Shown piece after piece: positions 22,646 to 48,515 of a stretch of 64,000 nucleotides of DNA (position 1 is its first letter; each line of letters begins with the position of its first letter). The position numbers were made by a program, and so were the translations under genes. Source of the DNA: Chloroflexota bacterium (GTDB lineage: Bacteria > Chloroflexota > UBA11872 > VXNJ01); the NCBI GenBank assembly GCA_009840625.1, contig VXNJ01000006.1, positions 1 through 64,000 of the forward strand, written 5' to 3'. The notes under the pieces are model-generated. The model did not search any database. It saw only the letters and a program-made list of their open reading frames with translations, and had not been told where the DNA came from.

Positions 22646-23497
22646 ATGGAACTGGTCGACAGCCACCATCATCTCTGGTTCATTGACGACTCCAACCTGA
22701 ACTGGCTCAGCGACGATATGCGCGCGGCCGGCGGGGCCCCAATCGCCGATTTCGGACTGCCGCAGCTGGAGGAAACCTTCGCCGCAGTCGGGGTGAACCG
22801 GTCGGTCCTGATCGAGGCCTGGCACGCCGAGGAGGACCAGATCCAATGGCTCGAGGCAACCGCCGAGCACCTGGTCGTGGGAGCGGTGATAGCCTGGGCG
22901 CCGCTCGAATCGCCTGACCTGGGGTCCCGGCTCGACCGCTTCGCCGCGTATCCGAAATTTCGCGGCTTGCGGATCAACGCCCAGGATGAACCAGACCCCG
23001 ATTACCTGCAGCGGCCCGACATCCGCGCCGGCATCGCCCAGCTGGCCGAACGCGAGGGCATGACCCTGGACCTGCTGATAAAGCTGGGCGACCTGAAGGA
23101 CGTGCCGGACCTGTGCGCCAACTTTCCCGATTTGCCGATGGTGCTGGACCACCTGGCCAAACCGCAGACCTACCAGGACGGCTATTTCGAGCCCTGGCGC
23201 GATCTGATGCGGCCCCTGGTCGACATCCCCAATCTGCAGTTCAAGCTTTCCGGGATGCTCACCGAAGCCGGACCCGCGCCGACCGCGCCGCAGCTGGCCC
23301 GCCCGGTCCGGTTCATGCTGGAAGAGTTCGGTCCGTCGAGGTTGATGTGGGGCAGCGATTGGCCGGTCTGTCTTTACGCCGCCGGCTACCGCGAGAATTT
23401 CGCCCTCATGCAGGCTGCGATCGGTCCGCTGCCGGCCCACGACCGGGCGGCGGTTTTCGGGAAAAACGCCGCCGCCCACTACCGCCTGGCCGACTAG
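22646..23497 (+). CDS. Amidohydrolase, COG3618 fuconolactonase-like
   Basis: A 283-residue TIM-barrel metallohydrolase. The N-terminal metal motif VDSHHHLW, the middle MVLDHLAKP and the late MWGSDWPVC are characteristic of the L-fuconolactonase/4-sulfomuconolactonase group, which opens lactone rings in sugar or aromatic-acid catabolism. The exact substrate is unknown. It sits upstream of an unrelated-length amidohydrolase plus Rieske pair on the same strand and may feed the same pathway. Confidence 0.85.
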   Translation: MELVDSHHHLWFIDDSNLNWLSDDMRAAGGAPIADFGLPQLEETFAAVGVNRSVLIEAWHAEEDQIQWLEATAEHLVVGAVIAWAPLESPDLGSRLDRFAAYPKFRGLRINAQDEPDPDYLQRPDIRAGIAQLAEREGMTLDLLIKLGDLKDVPDLCANFPDLPMVLDHLAKPQTYQDGYFEPWRDLMRPLVDIPNLQFKLSGMLTEAGPAPTAPQLARPVRFMLEEFGPSRLMWGSDWPVCLYAAGYRENFALMQAAIGPLPAHDRAAVFGKNAAAHYRLAD

Positions 23498-23594: not shown

Positions 23595-24722
23595 ATGGCG
23601 GTAACTAGCCCGGGCAGGGACCAAGCAAGTCGGCGCAAACTGGTCTCCCAGATAGTCGACACCGACATTCACCACGGGTTCGAGGAAGCGCAGGAAATCC
23701 TCGACTACGTGCCGTCCGAATACCGCGAGCGCACGTCCTGGTACGGGTTGCCGGTGGATTTCAATCCGGTCCAGAACAACGGCGGCATGCGCGGCGGTCG
23801 CAGCGACCTGGCGTTCGACTATCCCGAAATCCCGGTGTCCACCCGCGAGTCGTCGCTGCTGCGCTGCCGCGAGACCCTGCTGGACCGCTACGACATCGAT
23901 TTGGGAATACTTACCGGCGGCCAGATGTACGGTCAGACCGGGGCCATGGACTCGCAGTACGCATCGATCATGGCGCGGGCGTTCAACGACTGGACGCTCA
24001 AACGTTGGCTCGACGAAGACGACCGCCTGCGGTACGCGATGGCGGTCATCCCCCTGGATCCGCAGGGGGCGGTGGCCGAGATCGAGCGGTTGGCCGGCGA
24101 TCCGCGCGTGGTCGCGGTGCACCTGAACACCGGCGCCATGCGGCCATTCGGCAACCCCATGTATCACCCGATCTGGGAGGCCGCCGCCAAGCATGACCTG
24201 ACCCTGCAGCTGCATCTGGGCGGGGAGGGAACCGGAGTTCACCCGCCGATGACCTCGGCCGGTTTCCCCACCCATTACGTAGAACGGCGCATGGCCGAAC
24301 CGGGCCTGTACCTCCCGCACGTGGCGAGCTTCATCTTCGAAGGGGTCTTCGGCAAGTACCCGAACCTGAAGCTGGTGCTGGCCGAATCGGGGTTCACCTG
24401 CCTTCCGCACTATCTCTGGCGCATGGACGCGTGCTGGAAGGGGCTTCGCCACCAGGTCCCCTGGATCAAGGAACTTCCCAGCGAGATCTTCTACCGGCAC
24501 GTCTGGGTCGGCACCCAGCCGATGTACGAATACAACGAGGACCACGCCAACCTGATGAAGATGGTCGAGTGGCTGCGCGGCGACGAGCGCTTCGTCTACG
24601 CCAGCGACTACCCGCACTGGGACTGGGACGACCCCAACGACGCGGCCCGCACTTTCCCGTCCGAGATGCGCGAGCGCGTCTTCAACCGGAACGCCCGTAA
24701 AGCCTATCCGCGACTGCAGTGA
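23595..24722 (+). CDS. ACMSD-like amidohydrolase, copy A
   Basis: A 375-residue TIM-barrel hydrolase or decarboxylase of the amidohydrolase-2 family. Metal-site landmarks are VDTDIHH near residue 20, LQLHLGGEG in the middle and ASDYPHWDWDDP near the end. It is clearly paralogous to the gene at 36533-37636: both have WRxDxxWKGLRxxVPW, TQPM and DYPHWD. It overlaps the next gene, a Rieske ferredoxin, as GTGA. Family members act on 2-pyrone, aromatic-ring-cleavage or similar carboxylates; the substrate here is unknown. Confidence 0.85.
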   Translation: MAVTSPGRDQASRRKLVSQIVDTDIHHGFEEAQEILDYVPSEYRERTSWYGLPVDFNPVQNNGGMRGGRSDLAFDYPEIPVSTRESSLLRCRETLLDRYDIDLGILTGGQMYGQTGAMDSQYASIMARAFNDWTLKRWLDEDDRLRYAMAVIPLDPQGAVAEIERLAGDPRVVAVHLNTGAMRPFGNPMYHPIWEAAAKHDLTLQLHLGGEGTGVHPPMTSAGFPTHYVERRMAEPGLYLPHVASFIFEGVFGKYPNLKLVLAESGFTCLPHYLWRMDACWKGLRHQVPWIKELPSEIFYRHVWVGTQPMYEYNEDHANLMKMVEWLRGDERFVYASDYPHWDWDDPNDAARTFPSEMRERVFNRNARKAYPRLQ

Positions 24723-25147
24723 ACACTCGCGGGCGCCGCGCGCACGTAGTCTGCCGGGCCGACGAGCTGGGTCCCGGCCAACGGTTAATCGCCGCCTGCG
24801 GAGCGGTCGAGGTGGGGGTGTTCAACCTTGGGGGCGAGTACTTTGCTTTGCTCAACCGCTGCCCCCATAAATCGGCTCCGCTGTGCAAGGGGGTCCAGCG
24901 CGGCTACCTGACCGCCGACGAACCGCGCCAGATCAGTATCTCGGCGTCCAAGGAAGTGATCGGCTGTCCCTGGCACGGCTGGGAATTCGAAATCCGCACC
25001 GGGCGGTCATACTTCAACCCACACCGCGTCCGCGCCCGTTCCTACGACGCCGCCCGCGTCAGCGGGCAGGAGATCGCCGAGGAGGATCCGTCGGTGCCGA
25101 CTTTCCGGGTGCAGCGCGAAGACGATTACATCGTCGTCTATGTCTGA
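24719..25147 (+). CDS. Rieske [2Fe-2S] ferredoxin, copy A
   Basis: A 142-residue soluble Rieske protein. Cluster ligands are C48/H50 (RCPHK) and C83/H86 (CPWHGWEF), the Rieske CxH and CxxH pairs. No oxygenase catalytic domain is attached, so it should be an electron carrier for a partner enzyme. The GTG start lies in a GTGA overlap with the amidohydrolase stop, so the two are made together. The same arrangement recurs at 36533-37979. Confidence 0.9.
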   Translation: MNTRGRRAHVVCRADELGPGQRLIAACGAVEVGVFNLGGEYFALLNRCPHKSAPLCKGVQRGYLTADEPRQISISASKEVIGCPWHGWEFEIRTGRSYFNPHRVRARSYDAARVSGQEIAEEDPSVPTFRVQREDDYIVVYV

Positions 25148-34707: not shown

Positions 34708-36345
34708 TCAGTCCATTTCCAGTGGACGCCGCGGATTCAACGGAACGTGAATCAGGGCCGGACCGCCCTCGGCGATGGCGCGGCCGACGGTGGCCGCGAG
34801 TTCCTCGGGACGGCAGCGCTGCGCGCGCACGCCGAACGAACGGGCGTAGGCCACATAGTCCGGATTGGCCAGATCCACCTCGAACGATTCGCCGTAGAGA
34901 TTCTGCATCCCCTGCTTGATAACGCCGTAGGCCGAATCGTCAAACACGACCGCAACCACCGCCAGGTCGTGGCGTACCGCGGTCGCCAGCTCCTGACCGG
35001 TGAACAGGAATCCGCCGTCTCCGGCCAGCGCCACCACCGGTACGTCCGGCATCACCGCCTTGGCGCCCAGCGCCACCGGATACGAGTAGCCCAGGGCACA
35101 GCCGGTCATTCCATAAATCCACTTGCGCGGTTTCGAAAATGGCATGAACGGACGGCACCAGTAACCCACGATGTGCGGGTCGCCGACTACGATCGCGTCC
35201 TCGGGAATGCCGGCCCGCAGTTCGCGCACCAGGTCCATTTCGAATGCGGCGTGATCGTTCATGTAGGCATAAACCTGGGCGCGTTCGTTCCTGGCCCGCG
35301 CGACCCAGGCGTCGTTTTGCCCGTCGCCGGGTCCCAGCGCGTCCAGGATCGACTCCAATGCCGGTCCCGCGTCGGCGCAGACGCCCAATTCGACCGGGTA
35401 GTTCTTGCCGGGCTGCCTGGGATCGATGTCGATCTGGATCAGCTTCTGGCCGACCGGCATCGACCACTTGCGGGTCGGGGAAGCCCCGAACGCGCTGCCC
35501 ACCGCCAGCATCACGTCGCTGTCGGCCATCAGGCGCTGGATCGGGCCGAAGTTGAACAGCGATCCGATGTGCAGGCGGTGGTCGTGCGGCATGACCCCTT
35601 TGGCGGTGGTGGAGGTCAACACCGGGGCATCCAGCCGTTCGGCAAGGCGCTGGAAAGGCTCCCAGGCCGCCCCGGTCATCACCCCGCCTCCGGCCCAGAG
35701 CAGGGGTCGTTCGGCTTCAGCCAGCATCCGCGCCGCCCGTTCCAGGTCCTGCTGGTCGCCGCCGGGGGGTCGGGGCACGGAGGGACCGGCAGCTTCGACG
35801 TGCCCGTCGGCCAGGTGCACGTCGTGCGGGACTTCGATCGCCACCGGGCGGGGACGCCGCTCGCGCATCAGCCTGAATCCCTCGCGGATCGCCGGGGGGA
35901 TCGCGGCCGGCGACTGCACCTGGGTATTCCACTGGGTCAACCCGGAAAACAGCTGCTGCTGGTGCTTGATTTCATGCAGGAAGCCGACATCGCGGTAGAG
36001 CAGCGGCCGTTCTTCCTCGGCCATGATCAACATGATGGGCGTTGAGTCGGCGTGGGCCTGGGCCAGCGGCGTCGCGGCGTTCAATGCCCCGGGGCCCGGC
36101 GTCGTCAGCAGCACGCCCGGTTGCCCGCTGGCCCGGGCCGCGCCGATGGCGGCGAATCCGGCGCCCTGCTCGTGACGGACCAGGATGTGCCGCAGGCTGC
36201 CGTCGCGCGGCAGTGAGGCGTAAAGATGCTGGGTGTGGACGCCGGGAATGCCGAAAACGGTCCTGACGCCCTGAGACCGCAGCCCGGCCACGACCGCTTC
36301 CGAGCCGTTCATGCGCTCTGCGCCAACGGCGGTTAAGGTGTCCAA
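34708..36345 (-). CDS. Thiamine-diphosphate-dependent enzyme, acetolactate-synthase superfamily
   Basis: A 545-residue ThDP enzyme with three domains. The N-terminal PYR domain has the cofactor Glu in RHEQGAGFAAIG, the central domain has PLLWAGGGVM, and the C-terminal PP domain has the Mg-ThDP motif GDGGFLFTGQEL ending near FDDSAYG. It is distinct from ilvB in this window and has no small-subunit neighbour. It is likely a benzoylformate-decarboxylase, oxalyl-CoA or sulfo-type decarboxylase relative rather than anabolic acetolactate synthase. It diverges from the second amidohydrolase-Rieske pair. Confidence 0.85.
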   Translation of the reverse strand: MDTLTAVGAERMNGSEAVVAGLRSQGVRTVFGIPGVHTQHLYASLPRDGSLRHILVRHEQGAGFAAIGAARASGQPGVLLTTPGPGALNAATPLAQAHADSTPIMLIMAEEERPLLYRDVGFLHEIKHQQQLFSGLTQWNTQVQSPAAIPPAIREGFRLMRERRPRPVAIEVPHDVHLADGHVEAAGPSVPRPPGGDQQDLERAARMLAEAERPLLWAGGGVMTGAAWEPFQRLAERLDAPVLTSTTAKGVMPHDHRLHIGSLFNFGPIQRLMADSDVMLAVGSAFGASPTRKWSMPVGQKLIQIDIDPRQPGKNYPVELGVCADAGPALESILDALGPGDGQNDAWVARARNERAQVYAYMNDHAAFEMDLVRELRAGIPEDAIVVGDPHIVGYWCRPFMPFSKPRKWIYGMTGCALGYSYPVALGAKAVMPDVPVVALAGDGGFLFTGQELATAVRHDLAVVAVVFDDSAYGVIKQGMQNLYGESFEVDLANPDYVAYARSFGVRAQRCRPEELAATVGRAIAEGGPALIHVPLNPRRPLEMD

Positions 36346-36532
36346 CGCTTCGGCTCCAAAAAATCAGGGACGGATGCTTCGCCGCCTAATTCTTGCCAAA
36401 GTCGTCCAAGAGTTGCTCAGCATGCCCGGGTAGGCCATGCGCCGCATGGCGTGCGGCGTTCAATTGCGGACGGGTGCATCGGATAACTGTTAAATTTTTT
36501 AAATGCATTTTCCGCCCGCATCGGAGACGGCT
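36346..36532. promoter_or_regulatory. AT-rich divergent intergenic region
   Basis: This 187-base gap separates the divergent ThDP enzyme and amidohydrolase B. It contains the most AT-rich patch in the window (36486-36510, TTAAATTTTTTAAAT). That patch is suited to promoters for one or both genes, but no convincing -35/-10 pair can be fixed. Confidence 0.35.
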
Positions 36533-37636
36533 ATGGCGATTGCGCCAGAAGTCAGACCGGCTGGAACCCGCGAACAACCGGCTGCCATCAACCTCGTCGA
36601 CACCGACGTCCACAACTACATCGGCAGTTCACGCAACCTGCTCGAGTACCTGCCCGAGCGCTGGGTGCATTACCTGGAGCACACCGGTTTCGAACAGCCG
36701 CCGCGCGATTTCTACCCGCGCTTCTACCGCCACGCCGCCCGCCGCGACGCCTATCCCCCGTCGGGGATTCCCGGCAGCGACCCGCAGTTCGCGGCCGAAC
36801 AGCTGCTGGACGGCTACGGGATCGACATCGGCATCCTCAATTGCCTCTATCCGGCCTTCAAGATGTTCAACATCGATCTGGCCAACGCGCTGACCCGGGC
36901 CGCCAATGACTGGCAGATCGACAAGTGGCTGGACGCCGACCCGCGCTGGCGCGCCTCGATCCTGGTCAACGTCCGCGATCCCCAGTTCTCTGCCGAGGAG
37001 ATCCGCCGCTGCGCCCGCCACCCCGGCTACGTCCAGGTATTGCTGCTGGCGCGCAATCACGCCCCGCTCGGCAAGCGCGAATTCTGGCCGATCTACGAGG
37101 CGGCCCAGGACTGCGGGCTTCCCATCGGGGTCCACTTCGGCGGAGGGCACGACGTGCCGATCACCAGTTCCGGCTGGCCTTCCTACTACATCGAAGACCA
37201 CACCGGCATGGCCCAGTCGTTCCAATCACAGGTCCTGAGCCTGGTCTGCGAGGGAGTTTTCGTCGAGTACCCGAAAACCAAGGTGGTGCTGATTGAGGGC
37301 GGGTTCGCCTGGATGCCGCCGCTGATGTGGCGCCTGGACAAGAACTGGAAAGGGCTGCGCGGCGAGGTTCCGTGGCTGACCAAGCCGCCGAGCGATTACA
37401 TCCGCGAACACATTCGTTGCTCTACCCAGCCGATGGAGGAGCCCGAAGACCCGCGGCACCTGGCGCAGATCATCGAAATGCTCGGGTCGGACGAGTTCCT
37501 GCTCTTTGCCACCGACTATCCGCACTGGGACTTCGACTCCCCCGAACGCGCCCTTCCTGCGGTGATCGGCAAGGAACTCCGCGAGAAGATCTTCTCCAAG
37601 AACGCCCTCAAGATCTACGACTTTGCCCGCGGTTGA
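36533..37636 (+). CDS. ACMSD-like amidohydrolase, copy B
   Basis: A 367-residue paralogue of the gene at 23595. Metal-site landmarks are VDTDVHNYIG near residue 24, IGVHFGGGHD and FATDYPHWDFDSPERAL. ATG 36533 has GGAG 6 bases upstream. Compared with copy A, the second position of the first metal motif reads DVHN rather than DIHH, so substrate or metal use may differ. Its end overlaps the TTG start of a Rieske ferredoxin. Confidence 0.85.
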   Translation: MAIAPEVRPAGTREQPAAINLVDTDVHNYIGSSRNLLEYLPERWVHYLEHTGFEQPPRDFYPRFYRHAARRDAYPPSGIPGSDPQFAAEQLLDGYGIDIGILNCLYPAFKMFNIDLANALTRAANDWQIDKWLDADPRWRASILVNVRDPQFSAEEIRRCARHPGYVQVLLLARNHAPLGKREFWPIYEAAQDCGLPIGVHFGGGHDVPITSSGWPSYYIEDHTGMAQSFQSQVLSLVCEGVFVEYPKTKVVLIEGGFAWMPPLMWRLDKNWKGLRGEVPWLTKPPSDYIREHIRCSTQPMEEPEDPRHLAQIIEMLGSDEFLLFATDYPHWDFDSPERALPAVIGKELREKIFSKNALKIYDFARG

Positions 37637-37979
37637 CGTAGGGCCGGTCGAAGACTTCCCCCTCGGGGAGATTCGGCCGGCGAAATTGAATGGACGTGGA
37701 ATCGCGGTAGTCCGCAACGGCAACAGCGTCTACGCGGTGCGCGACATCTGCCCCCACCAGGGGGCCAAGCTCACCGCGGGGACCCTGACTGGCGAACCCG
37801 TCTACTGCGGGCCCGGCAACATCGAGTTCCGCCGCTTCGGGCATGTCCTCAAATGCCCCTGGCACGGCTGGGACTATTCGCTGGCCGACGGACAAGCGGT
37901 CGGCGGCAACCGCAAGGCCCGCATCCGGTCCTACCGCGCCCGGGTTGAAAACGGTCGCGTCCTGGTCGAATCCGACTAG
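37623..37979 (+). CDS. Rieske [2Fe-2S] ferredoxin, copy B
   Basis: A 118-residue Rieske protein with ligands C43/H45 (ICPHQ) and C78/H81 (CPWHGWDY). TTG 37623 overlaps the preceding amidohydrolase by 14 bases, indicating coupled translation. It is shorter at the N-terminus than copy A at 24719. No oxygenase component lies beside it. Confidence 0.88.
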   Translation: MPAVDVGPVEDFPLGEIRPAKLNGRGIAVVRNGNSVYAVRDICPHQGAKLTAGTLTGEPVYCGPGNIEFRRFGHVLKCPWHGWDYSLADGQAVGGNRKARIRSYRARVENGRVLVESD

Positions 37980-38017
37980 GGGCCGGCGAGCAAGTCGGGT
38001 CTGAAATAATTGCTTGA

Positions 38018-38031
38018 CGACCGATCGGTCG
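38018..38031. promoter_or_regulatory. Perfect 14-bp palindrome, possible TetR-type operator
   Basis: CGACCGATCGGTCG is fully palindromic and starts inside a TTGACG -35-like hexamer (38014-38019) about 50 bases before nuoB. TetR-family operators often have this form and position (established knowledge). No TetR gene is in the window. The -10 box is weak (CCCTAA at 38037). Confidence 0.4.
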
Positions 38032-38083
38032 GCGCCCCCTAAGCCCTCGGGCGCTGGGGAGTACGGTTAGGAACGGCCCGGAC

Positions 38084-38722
38084 TTGGCGATAGAGAAACC
38101 CGCGGAACCAAAAATCCGCGATCCGCTGCTGGTGCGCCTGGGCGAGAAGAACGGCGCCCTGGACATACTCACCACCACCACCGACAAGCTCTTTTCCTGG
38201 TGCATGGCCAATTCGCTCTGGCCGATGACGTTCGGTCTGGCCTGCTGCGCAATGGAATTTATGGCCTCGGCGGCGCCGATGTACGACACCGACCGATTCG
38301 GCGTGATCCTGCGTTCTTCGCCGCGCCAGTCGGACGTGATGGTGGTGGCCGGGACCGTGACCAACAAGATGGCTCCGGTGGTCCGGACGCTCTACGAGCA
38401 GATGCCGGACCCCAAGTACGTCATAGCCATGGGGATCTGCACGATCGCCGGCGGTCCGTTCCGCACCTACAACACCCTGCAGGGCGTGGACCGGATCGTG
38501 CCGGTCGACATCCACGTGCCTGGCTGCCCGCCGCGGCCCGAAGCGTTCATCGACTCGATCCTGTTGCTGCAGGAAAAGATCAAGCGGGAAGGCGTCCTGC
38601 GCTGGAAGCCGCCGCCACTGCCTCCGGCTCCGTCCGGAATAGGGCATTCCCTGGAACCCCCGCGGCCGGGCGAGAGCGTATCGCCGGTGCCGGAAGGAAT
38701 GCTGCCGCCGCACCGCAGCTGA
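38084..38722 (+). CDS. nuoB: NADH-quinone oxidoreductase subunit B, solitary
   Basis: NuoB carries the terminal N2 [4Fe-4S] cluster of respiratory complex I. The 212-residue product has the cluster cysteines in LACCAMEF, a later Cys in [11 protein letters not shown] where most NuoB read GxCAxSGG, and [12 protein letters not shown] Pro-rich tail (about 175-212) is extra. No other nuo gene is adjacent, which is unusual since nuoB normally sits between nuoA and nuoC. It might supply complex I in trans or belong to a related hydrogenase-like complex. Confidence 0.9.
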
Positions 38723-46835: not shown

Positions 46836-48515
46836 TCAGGCCTCCACGGTCTCGCCGAGCGACGCGCCGGGAACGACCATCGGCATGCAGTCCTCGAATT
46901 CATCCACCAGGAAATCGATCACGACCGGGCCGTCGATCGAGCGCGCTTCGGCGATGGCGTCGTCGGCTTCGGCCTGGGTGGCGGCCCGCAGGCCGGTAAT
47001 GCCGTAGGCCTCGGCGACTTTCTCGAAGGGCGGGTTGGCAAGCCGCGCGCCCAGCAGGCGGCCGTCGTAAAAGCGGTTCTGCCATTGCCTGATCATGCCC
47101 AGGTGGCCGTTGTTCATCACCCCGACCTTGACCGGGATCTGGTACTCGGCCAGGGTCGCAAATTCCTGGATGTTTATCTGCAGCCCGCCGTCGCCGGTGA
47201 CGCACCAGACTTCGTCTTCGGGGCACGCCACCGCCACTCCCAGGGCCGCCGGCAGGGCGTACCCCATCGGTCCGGTTCCGCCCGCCGAGAAGAAGTGCAG
47301 CGGGTGGTCGTAGAAGAAGTTCTGCGAGGCCCACATCTGGTTCTGCCCGACGTCGGCTATCACCTTGGCCTTCCCGCCGGAATGCTCGTAGATCTTGCGG
47401 ACCATGTGCTGGGGCAGCAGGTTTTCCGACTGCGGCGGGTCGTGGGACGGATGGTCGGCTTTCAGTTGGGCCAGGTGCTTGAGCCAGAGTCCGTGCTCGG
47501 GCGGGCGGGCGTTCTGGTTCAGCAGCGCCAAGGTGGCCTTGGCGTCGCCCACGATCGGGACCTCGGTCGGGACGATCTTGCCGATCTCGGCCGGATCGAC
47601 GTCGATGTGGATGATCTTGGCCTGGGGTGCGAAATCCGCGACCCGTCCAGTGACGCGGTCGTCGAAGCGACAGCCGATGCCGATGATCAGGTCGCAGTCG
47701 TGGACGGCCATGTTGGCGTAGTACATCCCGTGCATGCCCATCATTCCCAGCGACAGCTCGTGCCGCTCGGGGAAGCAGCCGACCCCGTGCAGGGTGGTGA
47801 TGACCGGAAGCCGGTTCTTGGTCGCCAGTTCGAACAACTCGTCCCAGGCGCCGGAGATGGCCACGCCGTGCCCGGCCATGATCACCGGTCGCTTGGACGC
47901 GGCGATCAGGTCCGCCGCGCGCCGGACCATCATCTTGTGTCCGGCCCCGGCGGGACGATACCCGGCGACCTTGACCGATTCGGGGGTCGGCGCCTTGGTC
48001 TCGGCCAGGAACACGTCCTTGGGAATATCGATATGCACCGGGCCCGGGCGTCCCGAGCGCGCCAGGTAGAACGCCTCTTTCATGATGTACGGCAGTTCGT
48101 CCGGATCGGTGACCAGGTAGTTCTGCTTGGTGACCGGAATCGAGCAGCCGGTGGCGTCGGTCTCCTGGAACGCATCGGTTCCGATGAACTCGCGCGCGAC
48201 CTGGCCGGTAATGAAGACGACCGGCACCGAGTCCATCTGCGCGGAGGCCATCGAGGTGACGAAATTGGTCGCGCCGGGACCGGAGGTCGAGGTCGCAACC
48301 CCCACCTGGTTGCGGGCCCGCGCATATCCGTCGGCGGCAAAGCCGGCGCCTTGTTCGTGGCGCATCAGGTAATGGCGGATCTGGGGGTAGTGGTAAAGGG
48401 CGTCGTAGAAAGGCAGGCTGGCGCCGCCCGGCATGCCGAAGATGGCATCGACGCCTTCCTCGACCATCACGTCGCACACGACCTGGCCGCCGGTGCGAGA
48501 TTGCGTCGATTTCAT
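46836..48515 (-). CDS. ilvB: Acetolactate synthase large subunit
   Basis: A ThDP/FAD enzyme that makes acetolactate or acetohydroxybutyrate. The 559 residues have the cofactor Glu in RHEQGAGFAADGYAR, the biosynthetic signature STSGPGATNFVT, the FAD/quinone region, and the ThDP-Mg motif GDGGLQINIQEFATL with GVMNNGHLGMI. A stop-proximal VPGASL.E segment ends it. It heads the ilv-leu block, and a 317-base leader with a candidate regulatory peptide lies upstream. Confidence 0.95.
   Translation of the reverse strand: MKSTQSRTGGQVVCDVMVEEGVDAIFGMPGGASLPFYDALYHYPQIRHYLMRHEQGAGFAADGYARARNQVGVATSTSGPGATNFVTSMASAQMDSVPVVFITGQVAREFIGTDAFQETDATGCSIPVTKQNYLVTDPDELPYIMKEAFYLARSGRPGPVHIDIPKDVFLAETKAPTPESVKVAGYRPAGAGHKMMVRRAADLIAASKRPVIMAGHGVAISGAWDELFELATKNRLPVITTLHGVGCFPERHELSLGMMGMHGMYYANMAVHDCDLIIGIGCRFDDRVTGRVADFAPQAKIIHIDVDPAEIGKIVPTEVPIVGDAKATLALLNQNARPPEHGLWLKHLAQLKADHPSHDPPQSENLLPQHMVRKIYEHSGGKAKVIADVGQNQMWASQNFFYDHPLHFFSAGGTGPMGYALPAALGVAVACPEDEVWCVTGDGGLQINIQEFATLAEYQIPVKVGVMNNGHLGMIRQWQNRFYDGRLLGARLANPPFEKVAEAYGITGLRAATQAEADDAIAEARSIDGPVVIDFLVDEFEDCMPMVVPGASLGETVEA

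Follow-up and report, generated by a model that had tools for sequence, protein, structure and literature searches.

A probable dinuclear oxygenase of the amidohydrolase fold and its Rieske ferredoxin, encoded by an overlapping gene pair in a Chloroflexota genome

Two overlapping cassettes in the window

The window, that is, the whole stretch of 64,000 nucleotides of a Chloroflexota genome analyzed here, carries at 36533-37979 a pair of genes on the forward strand, hereafter pair 2. The first (36533..37636, +) encodes a PF04909 protein of 367 aa with the amidohydrolase fold; we call it ARO2 and, from Pfam, PDB sequence matches, ligand mapping and a structure model, read it as a probable amidohydrolase-related dinuclear oxygenase (ARO). 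The second (37623..37979, +) encodes a Rieske [2Fe-2S] ferredoxin of 118 aa with a TTG start, assigned by Pfam, alignment, motif spacing and a model. The ATG at 36533 is backed by the nearest orthologue, from genome G001, whose MAVAPKP aligns to the MAIAPEV of the window, and the TTG at 37623 is the first start codon past the upstream stop of the Rieske reading frame. Because the Rieske gene starts at this TTG and ARO2 stops at 37636, the two genes overlap by 14 bases (37623..37636, +); the ORF coordinates thus bear out the first-pass annotation, which had placed an amidohydrolase gene and a Rieske gene here with an overlap of that length. Such an overlap, of about 11-32 bases, recurs in 28 of 29 pair-2-type stretches, the lengths being approximate (starts were taken from alignments) and two of the 29 stretches, L028 and L145, being one contig; the remaining stretch has an 18-base gap.

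A second cassette of the same gene order, pair 1, lies 12.9 kb away. It consists of ARO1 (375 aa; 23595..24722, +), assigned by its closest solved structure, SfbO, and by ligand mapping, and of a Rieske ferredoxin of 142 aa (24719..25147, +), recognized by sequence comparison and motif spacing; here the genes overlap by 4 bases. The earlier claim that both genes of pair 2 are paralogues of this pair is confirmed, with 37% identity over 376 columns for ARO1 and ARO2 (E 8e-72) and 30% over 92 columns for the two Rieske proteins (E 5e-16). When the whole genome (2.27 Mb) was searched with ARO2, just ARO1 and ARO2 were recovered, among six PF04909 matches.

Two further genes adjoin the cassettes. 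Directly downstream of the pair-2 Rieske gene is a NuoB-like gene (PF01058, 38084-38722), and the gene of a third PF04909 protein (283 aa; 22646-23497) precedes ARO1 by 97 bases in the same orientation. As the latter was missed by the whole-genome search with ARO2, it falls outside the ARO subfamily, and the neighborhoods of the other AROs fetched gave no homologue of it at E 1e-12.

Identity of the large protein

ARO2 matched 37 PDB sequences, of which the best eight were all chains of the AibH1/AibH2/SfbO type (AibH1, AibH2, SfbO and three other AROs), at E 6e-66 or better. The best match was the 8SM7 protein (E 3e-93), and AibH2 aligned over nearly the whole length (E 1e-90); PtmU3, the next after the ARO/AibH chains, came 49 orders of magnitude later at E 9e-17. 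The best PDB match of ARO1 was SfbO (8sm6, E 3e-89). A structure model of ARO2 (mean pLDDT 85.8, below 50 at residues 210-220, close in sequence to the predicted ligand H201) gave the same picture, in that ten ARO/AibH entries were retrieved at Z 39.4-43.0, the highest being 8sm7, followed by PtmU3 at Z 33.3 and by the other listed entries at Z 32.0 or less.

The dimetal site of AibH2 is formed by Asp25, His27, His211, Glu265, Asp337 and His340, and the dinuclear members are said to be recognizable by an acidic residue at position 342 (PMC7782822); the D342A replacement in AibH2 reduces activity (PMC10401708). In the alignment, ARO2 carries counterparts of all six ligands (D25, H27, H201, E255, D328 and H331) together with that of Asp342, the putative second-sphere residue D333. 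The corresponding set in ARO1 would be D24, H26, H207, E264, D338, H341 and D343. Among 294 collected AROs the full set of seven residues occurs in 199, and in many of the others the seventh residue is Gln or His, the latter being that of AibH1.

The larger gene had been labelled a hydrolase, and an ordinary enzyme of that kind, a mononuclear metal hydrolase or decarboxylase beside a Rieske protein that serves some other enzyme, has to be weighed first. Other characterized PF04909 enzymes do contain no cofactor or one metal (PMC10811679), and ACMSD and 5-carboxyvanillate decarboxylase are further matches to the fold of ARO2, at Z 30-31. Against this stand the complete dinuclear set in ARO2, with its six ligands and diagnostic Asp, the nearest structures, all of ARO/AibH types by a wide margin, and the Rieske partner, which co-diverges with its ARO (see below). 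On the ligands and the nearest structures we reject the hydrolase or decarboxylase reading as very unlikely, and the earlier label with it. On this evidence the "amidohydrolase" is most plausibly an oxygenase, and we consider it highly probable that the genes at 36533-37979 encode the terminal oxygenase and the ferredoxin of an ARO system. In annotations such genes appear under the names "amidohydrolase family protein" and "Rieske protein", and hydrolysis is what they are taken to indicate; the oxygenase reading changes the supposed capability of the organism, giving one Chloroflexota genome two putative O2-activating dinuclear enzymes.

Neighborhood and descent of the cassettes

The first-pass annotation had also seen in pair 2 and the adjoining gene a small catabolic module, with a ThDP-dependent decarboxylase, the hydrolase and the electron carrier arranged around an AT-rich shared promoter region. 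One part of this stands: the protein encoded at 34708..36345 (-; 545 aa) has all three ThDP-enzyme domains (Pfam PF02775, PF02776 and PF00205), its gene diverges from ARO2, and the 187-bp gap between them (36346..36532) is AT-richer than the window, if mildly so (GC 0.551 vs 0.663). A scan for sigma-70-like sites over 36250-38100 found none, and since the genes diverge, co-transcription of the ThDP gene with ARO2 and its Rieske gene is not to be expected. The module itself fails in the relatives. No ThDP homologue (E 1e-15) lay beside ARO2 orthologues in any of 20 regions, some of them short or ending at contig ends; ThDP orthologues with 50-52% identity, present in all but one of the 19 genomes of family f2, also occur in two genomes without an ARO match (G002 and G004); in G006, a single contig, the ARO and ThDP genes are 1.41 Mb apart; and G001, which has the closest ARO2 (59%), yielded one ThDP match at E 1e-60, of 31% identity. 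With the ThDP gene unlinked to ARO2 orthologues in relatives, we reject the module, which is very unlikely indeed, and take the ThDP enzyme as a neighbor by position only. No pathway emerged from the neighbors common to the ARO2 orthologues. The window holds a second ThDP-type enzyme (46917-48497, -), 31% identical to that at 34708-36345.

A small Rieske gene on the same strand within 1.5 kb of the ARO was found in 66 of 79, 30 of 41 and 63 of 82 clusters in three sets of ARO loci, which overlap in some contigs (e.g., L028 and L145). Ends of stretches account for 6, 5 and 9 of the misses; for 7/79, 6/41 and 10/82 ARO clusters no nearby Rieske was present although the stretch was long enough. 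At five loci (L162, L167, L170, L185 and L214) a small Rieske was not found in nearly 5 kb downstream of the ARO, and the electron donor of these AROs may be encoded elsewhere. In five genomes of one genus (L114-L118), a divergent ARO has no small Rieske on its strand, and the neighboring gene that converges on it, about 0.2 kb away (L115), is that of a Rieske protein of some 576 aa. At loci of a related family, f3 (L080-L086), two tandem AROs stand behind a Rieske; the ARO L080:3162, from the first of these loci, is without the Asp342 counterpart and is similar to AibH1, which suggests an AibH1H2-like heteromer.

For the descent of the two proteins, a duplication as a two-gene unit had been proposed earlier, together with a functional link between them. 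Trees were built by a quick method with SH-aLRT support from pairs in which the ARO had at least 300 aa and Asp at the 342 place, with one ARO per Rieske; thinning by ARO identity left 55 of 131 pairs (<88%) or 78 of 161 (<85%). AROs and their Rieske proteins co-diverge. Distances in the two trees were correlated over 78 pairs (Mantel, Spearman 0.672), a value reached by none of 999 shuffles, the highest of which gave 0.24; the same nearest neighbor outside the genome appeared in both trees for 34 of the 78 pairs (0.97 on average and 5 at most in the shuffles). Agreement was weak, at 106 of 181 quartets, in a generic within-genome swap test. Copies assembled independently were not found. The pairing of enzyme and ferredoxin is, from this co-divergence, old and specific.

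The group of pair 2 comprises the same 11 members, from Chloroflexota, Gemmatimonadota, Latescibacterota and Verrucomicrobiota, in the ARO and the Rieske trees, with Rieske support of 99 (55 pairs) and 83 (78 pairs). For pair 1 the picture is less sharp. ARO1-type AROs form an 11-member group (support 99, 78 pairs), and in the first Rieske tree (55 pairs) the pair-1 Rieske stood apart from the Rieskes of ARO1's relatives. This conflict weakened with 78 pairs, where eight of the 11 ARO1-type Rieskes fell into one group (support 94) and the pair-1 Rieske of the window was placed with L251 and L252 at a support of 14; when all 11 were constrained together the likelihood was 3.5 lnL units higher, and the arrangement was not rejected (p-AU 0.554).

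Identical gene order, the overlap in both and the short distance of 12.9 kb might suggest that one cassette arose from the other by a recent duplication in this lineage. The AU test on the AROs rules this out, as ARO1 and ARO2 are not sisters (dlnL 90.5, p-AU 0.0011); sisterhood of the two Rieskes of the window is disfavored as well (dlnL 35), though not rejected at 5% (p-AU 0.105). ARO2 is 55-59% identical to proteins of Gemmatimonadota, Latescibacterota and Verrucomicrobiota, vs 37% to ARO1, and both AROs have closer relatives in other genomes than they have in one another. A recent duplication, tandem or otherwise, is hardly credible on these grounds. What survives of the proposal is the behavior of the two genes as a unit. 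The cassettes themselves seem old and distinct, and neither looks like a copy of the other that arose in this lineage.

The Rieske partner and known oxygenase systems

The cluster ligands of the pair-2 Rieske are, by alignment, C43-P-H45 and C78-P-W-H81, with 32 residues between the motifs. The pair-1 Rieske has 32 as well, vs 15-19 in the other five Rieskes of this genome. All 78 ARO-linked Rieskes of the tree pairs have a spacing of 32-37 residues; one of them (L331) first read 9, from a pattern match elsewhere in the protein, and reads 33 for the same gene. These proteins had been found with ARO-linked Rieske queries, which favors long loops. As an unbiased check, every PF00355 match (E 0.001) in eight genomes was read, giving 51 rows for 49 distinct places: all 15 Rieskes within 1.5 kb of an ARO had a spacing of 32-34, vs 14-25 in 32 of 34 unlinked ones, the other two being without a readable motif. 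One of the unlinked (L302, spacing 16) is the large Rieske protein whose gene converges on the divergent ARO of L115 some 0.2 kb away; it was counted so because the limit was 1.5 kb and its Rieske domain lies 1,740 bp away from the ARO match.

Plasmids gave the same pattern in a hand-chosen sample (7 of 25 listed ARO records and 12 of 30 listed Rieske records), the AROs being judged by tblastn alone. A long-loop Rieske was present in all seven ARO-anchored stretches, four of them haloarchaeal. From the Rieske side, eight of 12 stretches had the long loop, all eight with an ARO match no more than two genes away, vs none of the four with the short loop. At three loci (L343, L345 and L346) a small gene lies between the Rieske and the ARO. 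On a Sulfitobacter plasmid (L334), a long-loop Rieske (32) is joined by a short-loop ferredoxin (16) within 0.5 kb of the ARO. An FAD-dependent oxidoreductase gene follows this ferredoxin, and the locus perhaps holds a full electron chain.

The additional residues, at about positions 59-72 of the profile, have no counterpart in three ferredoxin alignments. In a model of the pair-2 Rieske (pLDDT 92.3), DSSP assigned strands at 54-63 and 66-77, and the insert is likely a beta-hairpin, whose codons (residues 54-77, between the cluster motifs) would be those at 37782..37853 (+). Pro, Gly, Gly and Glu are nearly invariant at insert positions 64, 65, 73 and 74 in an alignment of 28 sequences, with exceptions in the window itself, namely position 74, which is His in the pair-2 Rieske, and positions 65 and 73, both different in the pair-1 Rieske.

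In the samples taken, every long-loop Rieske that was read adjoined an ARO, and the long loop was present in every ARO-Rieske pair of the catalytic type; the departures are the AROs without a nearby small Rieske, the five divergent AROs beside a large Rieske protein, and L334. This gave rise to the thought that AROs use a Rieske subtype of their own, recognizable in bacteria and archaea alike by the insert, which docks on the oxygenase and whose presence alone predicts an ARO partner, a proposal that we advance tentatively, as a possibility to be weighed and somewhat short of an expectation. A long-loop Rieske would then offer an easy way to test for ARO partners from sequence, independent of gene order, and the loop would mark the part of the ferredoxin to mutate. 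The literature searched yielded no mention of a long Rieske loop, and it may already be in print in the supplements.

How such a pair might work can be outlined from the AibH system. Three His and three carboxylates in the TIM barrel of ARO2 would hold a pair of metals (Fe/Fe or Mn/Fe), and single electrons delivered by the Rieske protein would reduce this dimetal site, which would then bind O2 and hydroxylate a small organic compound at a C-H bond, with AibH2 and 2-aminoisobutyrate as the model. Translational coupling through the gene overlap may keep enzyme and ferredoxin together, and the longer ferredoxin loop is likely part of the fit to the oxygenase. Elsewhere, the ARO and long-loop Rieske genes of Sinorhizobium meliloti pSymA (L340) adjoin those of a betaine-aldehyde dehydrogenase and a substrate-binding protein, and two haloarchaeal plasmid loci (L333 and L338) carry glycine-betaine transporter genes; these neighbors hint at quaternary-ammonium substrates.

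The pairing of AROs with Rieske proteins is already published. A small Rieske co-occurs with 90% of 555 AibH2-like proteins that have all six ligands (Powell et al. 2023, PMC10401708), and Liu et al. (2024, PMC10811679) defined the AROs and used the Rieske pairing to find four of them; in that paper no native substrate was known for SfbO or the others. The kind is therefore known, and ARO2 with its Rieske is a new example.

The reference system for ARO2 is AibH1H2-AibG-AibF, the 2-aminoisobutyrate monooxygenase of Rhodococcus wratislaviensis (6M1W, 6M2I, 8FUL-8FUO). AibH2 and ARO2 have in common the six ligands, Asp342 and an E-x-HTG-xx-QSFQSQ stretch, and ARO2 also has a Rieske gene next door. 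That ARO2 might instead be a non-catalytic structural subunit like AibH1, which has the same fold and aligns well with it (E 4.5e-70), is scarcely conceivable and was rejected, given that the residue equivalent to Asp342 is Asp in ARO2 and His in AibH1, itself considered non-catalytic, and that pair-2-type stretches hold one ARO per Rieske and so no catalytic partner alongside. Unlike the AibH1H2 system, ARO2 has no adjoining AibH1-like partner or AibF-like reductase, and its gene overlaps that of the Rieske: the cassette has one ARO, the one other member found in the genome (ARO1) has the full dinuclear set, and the gene after the pair-2 Rieske is the NuoB-like one. A search of the genome for reductase domains gave one weak match to PF00970 and none to PF14759.

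SfbO of Litorilinea aerophila and the 8SM7-8SM9 proteins are ARO-type oxygenases that were located via an adjoining Rieske gene. The sulfate-site residues Arg232, Arg235 and Trp341 of SfbO correspond to His, Met and Trp in ARO2 and to Arg, Glu and Trp in ARO1, and SfbO Asn67 falls in a gap in both alignments, while for Tyr280 the mapping gave no position. With Arg232 and Arg235 replaced by His and Met, the surrogate chemistry of SfbO is not transferable to ARO2. PtmU3, the diiron hydroxylase of platensimycin biosynthesis, has the fold and dimetal class predicted for ARO2, with 23% identity in the structural alignment, and is distant in sequence. Finally, the Rieske ferredoxins of aromatic dioxygenases (2QPZ, 5BOK and 1VCK) have the fold of the pair-2 Rieske (Z 17.2 to 2QPZ) and its C-x-H...C-x2-H ligands, the motifs being closer together by about 14-16 residues in the three alignments.
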